A DNA stretch of 64,000 bases from Streptomyces sp. NBC_01439 (lineage in GTDB: Bacteria; Actinomycetota; Actinomycetes; Streptomycetales; Streptomycetaceae): assembly GCF_036227605.1 (NCBI RefSeq), contig NZ_CP109487.1, positions 6,943,501-7,007,500 of the forward strand, read 5' to 3'. This document shows positions 46,986 to 60,172 of the stretch, one piece after another; within the stretch, counting starts at the first letter, position 1, and every line of letters begins with the position of its first letter. The position numbers and the translations under genes were made by a program. The notes beneath the pieces were generated by a model. That model did no database searches. It was not told the DNA's origin and saw only the letters and a list, made by a program, of their open reading frames with translations.

Positions 46986-47182
46986 CTACCAGCCCCGCTC
47001 GCGCCATTCGGCCAGGTGCGGGCGCTCGGCGCCGAGGGCGGTGTCGTTGCCGTGGCCCGGGTAGACCCAGGTCTCGTCCGGCAGCTGCTCGAAGAGCTTG
47101 TGCTGCACGTCGTCGATCAGGCTCGCGAAGGCCTTCGGGTCGTCGTGGGTGTTGCCCACGCCGCCCGGGAAGAGGCGGGGGC
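46986..47182 (-). pseudogene. MBL-fold metallo-hydrolase, 3' stub cut by the integrated element
   Basis: The last ~64 codons of an MBL-fold hydrolase: LFPGGVGNTHDDP, then DETWVYPGHGNDTALGAERPHLAEW, including the metal-binding His of PGHG. Upstream of LFPGG the reading changes to unrelated sequence (LYSPR), where intact proteins continue with the metal-binding GD(S/T) segment. No proper start remains. The 5' part should lie at the far end of the element, outside the window. In other Streptomyces a hydrolase of this type lies between the MFS gene and uvrA (recall). Confidence 0.85.
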
Positions 47183-47235
47183 TGTAGAGACCAACACCTA
47201 TGCCACCGTTGCCGGTTAAGATCGGCACGAAATTG
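47165..47235. other. candidate attL of the integrated element
   Basis: Hydrolase-coding sequence (CGCCGCCCGGGAAGAG on the plus strand) gives way near 47,175-47,182 to element DNA of visibly different composition. The crossover dinucleotide cannot be fixed without attR or an empty site. Confidence 0.6.
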
Positions 47236-47291
47236 CCCCGGCGGTGCGTCAACACCCCGGGGCGTGATCAGACCTGATGAGAGGTGCTGAC

Positions 47292-48575
47292 ATGGATGAC
47301 TCTATGCCGCCCGCCAAACGGAAGCGGCGGACGCCGGCAGAGACCGAAGCGGCATTTCGGGCGCATGTGGCGTTCCTGGGCGGCACGGTGGTCGGCGAGT
47401 ACGTAAAAGCGTCGGTCCCCGTGAGGTGCATCTGCGTCAACGGCCACCGGTGCGCTCCGCGACCGAGAGGCGTCCTGAGTGGACAAGGGCTCTGTACGGC
47501 ATGTGTCGGTCATAGCTCAGCAAGTGCGGAGCGTAAGTTTCAGGCACATGTGGGGGAACTGGGTGGGGTACTCGTCGGAAAGTACGTGAACAGCTACACC
47601 CCCGTGGAGCTGCTGTGCGCCCGAGGACACCGCTGCTCTCCCCGGCCACACGGCGTCCTGAGCGGCCAAGGAATCTGCCGCACCTGTGTTGGTCGCGACC
47701 CCGTTGACACTGAACGCCGGTTTTATGCTCACGTCGCTGAGCTTAGAGGCACCGTGGTCGGGGCGTACGTGAACAGATGCACCCCCGTGGAGTTGCTGTG
47801 CGCCCGAGGGCACCGCTGCTCGCCACGTCCGGACGGTGTCTTGCGGGGGCAGGGGCTCTGTACCACTTGCGTTGGCCACGATTCCGCCGAGGCGGAGCGC
47901 CGGTTCCGCGCTCGCGTCGCTGAGCTGGGAGGCACCGTAGTCGGGGCGTACGTGAACAGTAAGACGCCGGTGGGGCTGCACTGCTCAAGCGGGCACGCAC
48001 TCTCGGTTAAGCCGGAAGGCATTCTGAAGGGCAACGGGCTTTGTCGAGTCTGCGGGGGAAGCTGCCCGGTCGAAAACGAGCGCCGGTTCCGCGCTCGCGT
48101 CGCTGAGCTGGGAGGCACCGTAGTCGGGACGTACGTGAACAGTCGCACCCCGGTAGAAGTCAGGTGCCGCCTGGGACACGTCGGCTACCCCAATTCAGAC
48201 AGCCTTGTCGCGGGCAATGGACTCTGTGCGTCATGTGCGGGGATGACGTGGGACGTGGTCTATGTCGTGACTGACCCGAAGATGAGTGTCGTAAAGATCG
48301 GCGTCACCTCCGGGGACCCTAAGGGCCGGCTCAGGAAGCACCGGCATGCGTACGGCCTGTCCGAAGTCGTTCGACTACACGTAGCGCTGCCTGACGGTGT
48401 GGCTAAGGCGTTGGAGGCCAGCACGCTCCGCGCACTCGCGGAGGCCGGACACAAGCCCGTGTGGGGTCGGGAGTATTTCGGCCCCGGGGCGCTTTCTGTG
48501 GTGCTCCGTCAGATCGACGAAGGGGTGTTCAACGCGTCTCAGGCCTCACGGAGGACTGACGAACCATGCAACTGA
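47292..48575 (+). CDS. five zinc-ligand repeats plus GIY-YIG-like nuclease domain, coupled to the integrase
   Basis: 427 residues from the ATG at 47292, behind GAGAGGTG; an ATG at 47277 has no ribosome site. Residues ~15-318 are five repeats of about 61 residues, each with ELGGTVVGAYVN, TPV and ligands C-x3-H-x15-C-x2-C (as in LLCARGH ... GLCTTC). Residues ~320-405 look like a GIY-YIG (T5orf172-type) domain: VVYVVTD, VKIGVTSG, GRLRKH with the likely catalytic Arg, and a Glu in GREYF. The repeats should bind zinc and probably DNA. The last ten bases overlap the integrase start, so the two are translated together. Base composition is visibly less GC-rich than the host genes. No function is known to me; a homing or element-maintenance nuclease is possible. 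Confidence 0.8.
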   Translation: MDDSMPPAKRKRRTPAETEAAFRAHVAFLGGTVVGEYVKASVPVRCICVNGHRCAPRPRGVLSGQGLCTACVGHSSASAERKFQAHVGELGGVLVGKYVNSYTPVELLCARGHRCSPRPHGVLSGQGICRTCVGRDPVDTERRFYAHVAELRGTVVGAYVNRCTPVELLCARGHRCSPRPDGVLRGQGLCTTCVGHDSAEAERRFRARVAELGGTVVGAYVNSKTPVGLHCSSGHALSVKPEGILKGNGLCRVCGGSCPVENERRFRARVAELGGTVVGTYVNSRTPVEVRCRLGHVGYPNSDSLVAGNGLCASCAGMTWDVVYVVTDPKMSVVKIGVTSGDPKGRLRKHRHAYGLSEVVRLHVALPDGVAKALEASTLRALAEAGHKPVWGREYFGPGALSVVLRQIDEGVFNASQASRRTDEPCN

Positions 48576-50065
48576 CCTTGCCGATCCGCACGCTCGCCAT
48601 CCTTTACGCCCGGATCTCTTCAGACCCGGGGGACAAGCGCCGTGGTGTGAAGCGACAGATGGATGACCTTGAAGCCTTCGCCGGGGAGAACGGGTGGCAG
48701 GTAGCTGGCCGGTTTGTAGAGAACGACGTCAGCGCCCACTCCGGTGAGGAACGCCCCGAGTACAACGCAGCAATGGCGGCCGTCATCGCTGCTGCCGAGG
48801 ACCCCACCGTTCGCGCGGTGCTGGTTGGCTACCACACATCCCGCGTGTGGCGCCGAAGGGTAGAACGAGCATCTGCAATCGAAGCCCTAAGGCGGGCCGG
48901 GTGCTGGGTGGCGCTGGAGCGCGGCGGCCTGTTCAACATGGCGAAGGCCAGCGACCGCAGCCAGCTTGCGAACCTCGGTGAGTCCGATACTGCCGAGTCT
49001 GAGGTGAAGTCGGAGCGCGTCGCCCGGGCCGCGCTGGAGCGTGCCCAGGAGGGCAGGGCGAATGGGCCGGTGGCGTACGGGTGGAGGCGTCAGTACGAGT
49101 ACGACGCCCGCGGCCAGGTCGACGGGTTCCATGATGTCGAGGACCCCGAACAGGCTGCTGTCGTCCGTGACATCGTCACCCGGCTGCTGTCCGGGGCGAG
49201 CCTGATCGGGATCACGGCGGACCTGAATGAGCGCGGGGTGCCGGCGCCCGGGGCGGGGATGCGGCTGAAGCGGCGGGCGGTCGGGCAGAACGAGGAGGGG
49301 TCGCTGTGGAACAAGACCAGCGTGAAGAAGCTCGCGTTGCGCCCGGGGAATGTGGGGATCCGCGTTCACCTGGGCGTGGAGTACAAGGCGGCGTGGCCGG
49401 CGCTCATCACGGACGAGCAGTACGCGCAGCTCCGGAACCTGTTCGCGGAGCGGGCCGTCGTACGTGAGCTGCCGGGGGCGCGGAAACACCTGCTGACGTG
49501 GGGCCAGGTCGCGACGTGCGGGCCGTGCGGATCGGTCCTCCGGGTCGCCCTGAAGGGGAACGCGACGCGCGGCCGGAAGCAGTCGACGTACGTCTGCGAC
49601 GCGAGCGGTTGCGTCGGCCGGAATGAGGAAGCCCTCGACAAGTACGTCGGCACGGTGGTGGTGAAGCTGCTGTCAAAGCCTGCGGCGGCCGACGTGTTCC
49701 GCGGTGACGACTCGGCGGCCTTGGCGGCCCTGGAGCGGGCGGAGGGGTTGAAGGCCCGGCAGGAGGCGGCGGCGGACGACTACGCGGACGGGATCATTAC
49801 CCGCGAGCAGCTACGACGGATCACGGCGAAGCTGGCGAAGCAGATCACGGACGCGCAGAACGAGGCGCGCAGGTTGCGGCCGGCCTTCGACCTCGACGCG
49901 TTCAAAGGCCTCGTAGGGCCGGGGTCCGAGGAGGCGTGGAAGGCACTCCTGGTGTCGCAGAAGCGGCGGGTCCTGGACGGCCTCGGGCTGCGCCTGACGG
50001 TGCAACCGGTCGCGCGGCGCGGTCCGGGGTTCGATAAGACCACCATTGACCTGGAGTGGTCGTGA
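48566..50065 (+). CDS. int: large serine recombinase (integrase)
   Basis: 499 residues. The resolvase domain opens with LAILYARISSDPGDKRRGVKRQ (catalytic Ser in RIS) and VGYHTSRVWRR. The recombinase domain follows at ~165-290 (ANGPVAYGWRR, LNERGVPAPGAG), then a zinc ribbon (CGPCGS ... CDASGC) near 315-350 and a coiled coil (~380-440). This is the phiC31/R4 class, which integrates phage DNA at short att sites without host factors. It lies about 1.4 kb from the hydrolase/element junction. Start overlaps the upstream gene by ten bases. Confidence 0.96.
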   Translation: MQLTLPIRTLAILYARISSDPGDKRRGVKRQMDDLEAFAGENGWQVAGRFVENDVSAHSGEERPEYNAAMAAVIAAAEDPTVRAVLVGYHTSRVWRRRVERASAIEALRRAGCWVALERGGLFNMAKASDRSQLANLGESDTAESEVKSERVARAALERAQEGRANGPVAYGWRRQYEYDARGQVDGFHDVEDPEQAAVVRDIVTRLLSGASLIGITADLNERGVPAPGAGMRLKRRAVGQNEEGSLWNKTSVKKLALRPGNVGIRVHLGVEYKAAWPALITDEQYAQLRNLFAERAVVRELPGARKHLLTWGQVATCGPCGSVLRVALKGNATRGRKQSTYVCDASGCVGRNEEALDKYVGTVVVKLLSKPAAADVFRGDDSAALAALERAEGLKARQEAAADDYADGIITREQLRRITAKLAKQITDAQNEARRLRPAFDLDAFKGLVGPGSEEAWKALLVSQKRRVLDGLGLRLTVQPVARRGPGFDKTTIDLEWS

Positions 50066-58933: not shown

Positions 58934-60172
58934 TCAGCTCTCCTCGGCGGCGGCGCGGGCCGCAGTGAACGGGTTGTCGGTCCGGCCCCGGGCCGGCGCC
59001 AGATAGTGCTTCTCCACGGTCCGGGAACCCGGCTTCCAACGGCCCTGTGCGGTCGGGTCCTGGCCGAGCCGGGCGAGGTACTGCGCGGGGCCGCGGCGGA
59101 GGCCATGCGCGGTCAGCTTGGCCAGGACGGCGCGGGCCGGGTCGTCGTCCGGCAGCGGCGCAGCGGCGGCCTCGGCACGGGCCTTGACGATGTCGCCGAT
59201 GGTCGCCGGGGTGAGGAAGTCGCCGCGCTTGCGGGTCGGGATGGCGCCGGTCCTGGTGACGGCGCGGAACACCGGGCCGGAGGTGTGGCCCTGGCGGCGC
59301 AGCTCGGCGAGCCAGGCGGACATGCGGCGCACCGGGCAGACGGCCGGGTTGTCAGGGTCCGCCGGCACGAACGTGTCCTCGCCCTCGGCCTCCTGGTCGG
59401 TCTTGGAGTACGCGACGTGGACCGTGACGCCGTCCTCCTCGACGGTGAGCCGCTCGATCGTGAGGTGCGCCAGCTCGGAGCGGCGGGAGAGCATCCCCCA
59501 CCCGAGGGTGAGCAGCGCGGCGTCCCGCAGGGCGACGACCTGCCCGCCCGGGGTCGGCGCGGCACAGGTGGCCACGAGGGAGCCGAGGAGCGACGGGGTG
59601 ACCGGCGGGGCCTTCCTCGGTGCGCGATTGGCCCGGCTTCGGGCGTGCTTCCGGACCATCTTCCCGGCCTCCTTGGTGCCCGGCTTCTGGTCGTCCGGGT
59701 GCTGGGAGCGGATCGCGGACATGTGGACGCGGATGGTGGCGGGCGAGGCGTCGGCCCGCACGAGGTGCCCGACGTACTCGGTGAACGTCGCCGTGGTGCA
59801 CGGCAGCGGCACCCGGCCCTCGGCGGCGCACCACTCCCCGAACTTCTTCCATGCGGAGGTGTACGTGCGGGAGGTGTTCGCCGGGGGCGCGTCGTCGAGG
59901 AGCTCGGCCGTCTCCTGGGAGATCCGGAAATCCGCCTCGCTGTACGTCGGGGCGTCCGCCGTGGTCGGCACGGCCTGGCCGGGGCGGAGCATCGTGTGAC
60001 GGTTCACCAGCGGCCGGGCGGCCGGGGCCGGGTCGGCGACGGCGGGCAGGAGGTCCACGTCGATGAACGGGCGCGGGTGCTTGCCCGGGTCGGCCGGCAC
60101 CGGGAACAGTCCCTCACCGTCCTCGACCACCTCGGCGTCGACCACCTCCGTGTCGGCCGGTTCGGCCGTCAC
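58934..60172 (-). CDS. tyrosine recombinase / site-specific integrase
   Basis: 412 residues, GTG start overlapping the upstream stop (GTGA). A SAM-like core-binding domain at ~95-175 (TYTSAWKKFGEWCAAEGRVPLP, ATIRVHMSAIRSQH). The catalytic domain at ~190-400 has Arg I in LSRRSELAHLTIERL, the HxxR motif in TAHGLRRGPAQYLARLG and the likely nucleophile Tyr in RTVEKHYLAPARG. It is the second recombinase of the element besides the serine integrase. It could resolve multimers, invert DNA or serve another att site. Confidence 0.88.
   Translation of the reverse strand: MTAEPADTEVVDAEVVEDGEGLFPVPADPGKHPRPFIDVDLLPAVADPAPAARPLVNRHTMLRPGQAVPTTADAPTYSEADFRISQETAELLDDAPPANTSRTYTSAWKKFGEWCAAEGRVPLPCTTATFTEYVGHLVRADASPATIRVHMSAIRSQHPDDQKPGTKEAGKMVRKHARSRANRAPRKAPPVTPSLLGSLVATCAAPTPGGQVVALRDAALLTLGWGMLSRRSELAHLTIERLTVEEDGVTVHVAYSKTDQEAEGEDTFVPADPDNPAVCPVRRMSAWLAELRRQGHTSGPVFRAVTRTGAIPTRKRGDFLTPATIGDIVKARAEAAAAPLPDDDPARAVLAKLTAHGLRRGPAQYLARLGQDPTAQGRWKPGSRTVEKHYLAPARGRTDNPFTAARAAAEES

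Follow-up and report, generated by a model that had tools for sequence, protein, structure and literature searches.

A phage-type zinc-repeat endonuclease gene, probably of the homing type, between the attachment site and the serine integrase gene of an integrated Streptomyces element

Introduction

The genome of Streptomyces sp. NBC_01439 (9.58 Mb, single contig) holds an integrated element of about 37.7 kb, and the left end of this element lies in the 64,000-nucleotide (nt) stretch of DNA analysed here, which we call the window. Between the left attachment site (attL) of the element and its serine integrase gene (int) stands a gene for a protein made of five zinc repeats and a C-terminal nuclease domain, referred to below as the endonuclease gene. 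The features of this region are as follows, in window positions.

46986-47171, minus strand: displaced C-terminal piece of the host gene for an MBL-fold hydrolase, forming the left (B) half of attL; a homologous segment is present in 21 of the 21 genomes searched, its own included.
47167-47197, plus strand: attL core GGGAA (47167-47171) and P' arm; AACAC ends 26 bases past the core, a spacing as in relatives.
47198-48571, plus strand: putative inserted segment of about 1374 bp, absent from four related elements; its edges are uncertain by several bases, or by more on the left.
47292-48575, plus strand: gene for a zinc-repeat and T5orf172 homing-type endonuclease, from open reading frame (ORF) and family scans; alternative start at 47277.
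47337-48251, plus strand: five repeats of 61 amino acids (aa) with C-x3-H-x15-C-x2-C ligands, residues 21-325.
48255-48482, plus strand: Pfam match to T5orf172 (GIY-YIG superfamily), residues 327-402.
48566-50065, plus strand: serine integrase gene (int), an open frame with a new start codon that overlaps the endonuclease stop; the codon of Ser18, which we take from family knowledge to be the catalytic serine, is at 48617.

Results

The endonuclease gene and its product

The frame is open on the plus strand from either 47277 or 47292 through 48575, and because GAGAGG stands 7 nt upstream of 47292, this looks the better of the two candidate starts and gives a product of 427 aa. The end of the gene overlaps the start of int by ten bases (48566-48575), and a scan of 47100-48700 for promoters and terminators found none. 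Among the PHROGs families the product matched phrog_681 (endonuclease, 4.1e-32) and phrog_559 (HNH endonuclease, 5.1e-27). PADLOC returned weak matches only (best 0.0082), sequence searches of the PDB gave no match or none that was relevant, and a pattern scan of genome contigs found no relative of the endonuclease.

The C-x3-H-x15-C-x2-C motif occurs five times at a spacing of exactly 61 residues, and the repeats share 341 in-register identical residue pairs, whereas the highest count among 2000 shuffles was 72. An initial annotation, made by a model from the sequence alone, had described five near-identical repeats; their number, length and ligands stand, but near-identity does not, since the repeats are 46-70% identical as protein and 50-69% as DNA, with 94% identity limited to 77 nt shared by repeats 4 and 5. 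Homologues carry between three and nine repeats (9, 48, 43, 13, 3, 2 and 2 proteins, respectively, counted in 120 listed of 168 homologues at E ≤ 1e-5). When the endonuclease was aligned with 25 sequences picked by hand from these 120, all twenty zinc-ligand columns were invariant across the 26, as were Y329, K340, G342, R351, H355, E380, E399 and Y400; from their spacing, R351 and E380 are presumably the catalytic arginine and glutamate.

The profile search that the initial annotation had proposed identified the C-terminal domain but left the repeats unassigned. Scanned alone, the C-terminal 111 aa matched Pfam T5orf172 (2.7e-4, 21.9 bits, cut-off 20), in agreement with the annotation's modular zinc-repeat binder joined to a nuclease of the GIY-YIG superfamily; T5orf172 was not listed at E ≤ 1 for the full-length protein. 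At the same threshold the repeats matched none of CapR, DUF723 or DUF4379, and one of the 26 aligned sequences had a CapR match (1.1e-5). The AlphaFold model combined a local confidence (pLDDT) of 89 with an overall predicted template-modelling score (pTM) of 0.42, which is consistent with a beads-on-a-string layout, and the modelled C-terminal elements follow the order strand-strand-helix-strand-helix. A Foldseek search of the PDB with the whole model found nothing at E ≤ 0.001. At that threshold 215 predicted viral structures matched, and the best 50 of them, all with TM-scores of 0.43 or less, included proteins named zinc-ribbon, treble clef, CapR, T5 Orf172 and homing endonuclease, together with restriction enzyme, giant-virus and unnamed proteins. 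Modelled by itself and without an alignment, the C-terminal piece gave a pLDDT of 39 and no usable structure.

The integrated element and its empty relatives

The match to host sequence stops at 47171, with attL directly upstream of the endonuclease gene. The opposite end of the element, 37.7 kb away, carries attR, the GGGAA core standing at window position 47167 and again at position 848 of locus L035. When the host flanks were joined by script, an ORF for a 221-aa MBL-fold hydrolase was restored. At attR a 220-aa version of the hydrolase has its 3' end supplied by the element (46986-47255 compared with L035 672-1321), and this element-borne end is 72% identical to the displaced host piece. 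The element of about 37.7 kb sits inside the MBL-fold hydrolase gene, which is completed again at attR.

At E ≤ 1e-60 a search of 392 same-genus genomes recovered the integrase itself and four others (in genomes G342, G164, G349 and G289), which are 82-84% identical to it and occupy the same attachment site (attB). A search of 395 relatives at E ≤ 1e-100 recovered the integrase and that of G164, and a pattern scan of viral contigs for the integrase found no relative. In all four related elements the endonuclease gene is absent: the C-terminal piece of the hydrolase abuts int, and int begins at the P' arm, the start codon position in G349 being CTG and not GTG. Homology of the present int with these relatives resumes at about codon 4 (LTLPIRT, against LTLAIRT in G289), preceded by ATGCAA next to the endonuclease stop. 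The guanine plus cytosine (GC) content of the inserted stretch (64.7%, computed on 47199-48572) is lower than that of int (68.8%) and of the window (72.5%).

The right end of the element was located in G342, G164 and G349; for G289 only the left end was found, attR being absent from the 40 kb fetched. The P' arms of the present element and its relatives have in common AACAC ending 26 bases past the core, and in the three rebuilt attP sites (own, G164 and G349) the P arms carry TACAC or AACAC ending 23 bases from the core. Because this arm spacing is kept, attP appears, as far as sequence can tell, to be intact despite the insertion.

Elsewhere in the element, PHROGs searches of ten ORFs gave one FtsK/SpoIIIE-like match, one match to a family whose function is not known and nothing for the other eight, and Pfam searches of ten ORFs, a set partly overlapping the first, gave one weak CoiA_N match. 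The FtsK/SpoIIIE-like ORF (L034:7671-9878; phrog_1358, 5.1e-9) also matched a terminase family weakly (6.9e-4) and had no Pfam match at E ≤ 0.001. The element may be a prophage or a conjugative one, for example an actinomycete integrative and conjugative element (AICE), in which an FtsK/SpoIIIE-type translocase is expected. A 412-aa ORF within it (58934-60172, minus strand) resembles a tyrosine recombinase by eye and had no Pfam match at E ≤ 0.001. A second GIY-YIG-type ORF lies beside attR, at the other end of the element (L035:12-599; genome contig C1, about 7027512-7028099), and matched Pfam MUG113 (2.0e-12) and T5orf172 (1.9e-9).

Homologues in other genomes, phages and plasmids

Counting the present genome, endonuclease homologues occur in 14 of the 392 same-genus genomes (E ≤ 1e-10), in 104 of 50,697 phage records searched by tblastn, where some are annotated as endonuclease or putative homing endonuclease, and in 9 of 72,556 plasmids. 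The initial annotation had suggested a survey of whether homologues always sit beside serine integrases, and in the flanks searched they seldom do. Four serine-integrase sequences served as queries (E ≤ 1e-5) against flanks of about 5-8 kb at 49 loci (14 + 13 + 22), a test that very divergent integrases could escape; seven of the loci were dropped as duplicates or near-identical copies. An intact serine integrase was present at one of the 42 distinct loci (L055) and a fragment of 46 aa at another (L059), leaving 40 without a match. One of the queries was L055's own integrase, and the window integrase also matched L055 (1.3e-37). Flanks were shorter on at least one side at L068, L073, L081, L083, L085, L090, L091 and L094, and some others were cut at a contig end. 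At L055, in genome G143 (L055:4341-8705), a shorter homologue is convergent to the serine integrase gene and is flanked on the opposite side by a gene with a resolvase domain.

Family matches were obtained for 18 of the 28 neighbour genes scanned (at E ≤ 0.01 or at 1e-5; some of the matches do not exceed the curated cut-offs). By PHROGs the neighbours include terminase (L078), tape measure (L075, L082) and helicase (L095) genes; besides phage genes there were SpoIIE, mutator transposase, glycosyltransferase, collagen-repeat, sigma factor, GntR and AAA families. In G349 an endonuclease homologue and the integrase relative are present in one genome, about 480 kb apart. At three of the 14 genome loci the match was to the repeats only.

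Empty alleles were also recognised in phages, where they were judged by gene order and the junctions are not base-exact. Phage Mischief19 has no counterpart of phiSAJS1 gp30, a gene of a Streptomyces phage, between its genes 33 and 32, which mark the equivalent place. Gene 105 of RcXuper starts on the last base of a helicase gene and is missing between the helicase and HD hydrolase genes of RpAliso, as it is at the equivalent place of MD18, where the genes are annotated as hypothetical.

Two side observations concern the homologue loci. On contig 111 of G366, a segment of at least about 13 kb that contains a homologue occurs twice in nearly identical form (L048 and L049), some 90 kb separating the two; this is either a duplication or an assembly effect. 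At L061 and L074 the homologues are flanked by large phrog_18824 proteins (778 to 2460 aa), the function of which is unknown.

Discussion

The T5orf172 domain, the matches to PHROGs endonuclease families, the empty sites, the scattered contexts of homologues, the lower GC content and the invariance of the zinc ligands and of R351 and E380 all argue for homing, and this was the best supported of the roles that the initial annotation had proposed. The gene is probably a free-standing homing-type endonuclease gene that inserted into the integrated element between the P' arm of attP and about codon 4 of int; cleavage, the DNA target and homing itself we infer from sequence comparison. In the mechanism that we propose, a long DNA site would be bound through the zinc-repeat modules and cut by the GIY-YIG-like C-terminal domain, the target being the uninterrupted junction of attP and the 5' end of int in a related element present in the same cell. 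Repair from the carrying copy would then spread the endonuclease gene, as in intronless homing. An insertion at the position found here would split the element's own target and leave the element competent for integration, with the tail of the endonuclease gene supplying a new start codon for int.

Other readings of the locus have to be weighed against homing. The initial annotation had correctly noted that the gene lies between attL and int and overlaps int by ten bases, and had proposed a functional pairing with the integrase, including in target choice. Such a dedicated partner, binding att DNA and steering integration, excision or target choice, would fit this position and overlap, and a further homologue adjoins a serine integrase in G143; that pair is convergent, however, with the homologue not upstream, the gene is absent beside all four integrase relatives at the same attB, 40 of the 42 loci lack a serine integrase match in the flanks searched, and att spacing is equal in relatives without the gene. 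We therefore consider a pairing with the integrase very unlikely. That the gene is an inert passenger, a former homing endonuclease that has lost its activity, seems to us just as improbable: its composition is unlike that of int and of the window and it is present in one of the five elements compared, but its frame is open and all five ligand sets are kept together with R351, H355, E380, E399 and Y400. The homologues that match in their repeats only weigh slightly against homing and slightly in favour of an inert passenger.

A nuclease domesticated for use against rivals would resemble Odn (gp88 of phage ICP1), a T5orf172 nuclease that cuts the origin of a rival satellite (PMC8263062). By this analogy the protein would cut the attP or int of competitors and exclude superinfecting elements, a role also among those that the initial annotation had named, with homing secondary or lost. 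Its likely site, attP-int, is common to competing elements, and four of these are inserted at the same attB in genomes other than this one, but the gene is kept in none of the four related elements, and we regard this reading as unlikely, if less so than the two above. More plausible than any of these, though still doubtful, is that a homing gene of the kind we favour serves both ends, its five zinc modules reading the junction of the P' arm and the 5' end of int and its homing doubling as attachment-site exclusion against rivals for the same slot. If this were true, the mobility locus of a rival would be destroyed and converted to the carrying allele, right beside the sequence being policed.

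The locus presents a phage-type zinc-array endonuclease gene, probably of the homing type, at the border of attP and int, with occupied and empty alleles at one attB. The candidate target region is short and may help to understand how the zinc modules of a poorly characterised class read DNA, and it opens the question of whether such nucleases police attachment sites among competing elements.

Comparison with known systems

T5orf172 is a subfamily of GIY-YIG nucleases (Barth et al. 2023, PMC10448857). Zinc-finger domains, often several, are reported there in 200 of 229 T5orf172 genes, and of 468 neighbourhoods 293 contain a gene that serves as an essential marker. With the phage T5orf172 homing endonucleases described there, which carry CapR, DUF723 or DUF4379 modules, the present protein shares an array of zinc modules with a terminal T5orf172 domain, a variable number of repeats and optional insertion adjoining conserved genes. 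It differs in that its repeats match none of these three Pfam models, in being carried by an integrated element of an actinobacterium and in having attP/int as its neighbour, as against the terminase, ribonucleotide reductase or capsid genes of that class. Odn, too, joins a T5orf172 nuclease to a part that binds DNA sequence-specifically; the Odn binder resembles RepA of the attacked satellite, zinc is unmentioned in that article's main text, and the target of Odn is known (PMC8263062).

The gp30 of Streptomyces phage phiSAJS1 is 37% identical over query residues 233-414 and has its empty site in Mischief19; it is shorter and lies among phage genes partly annotated as tail genes in a relative, with no integrase beside it. 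The elements of G342, G164, G349 and G289 share the attB and a related integrase and are without the endonuclease gene. The initial annotation had known of no described system with this pairing. In titles and abstract openings of the open-access literature we found no report of a T5orf172 or homing endonuclease gene beside attP/int, and to that extent the statement holds, but the architecture itself had been described for the phage class (PMC10448857). The type of protein is thus already known from phages, and what is unusual is its landing place between an attachment site and int.
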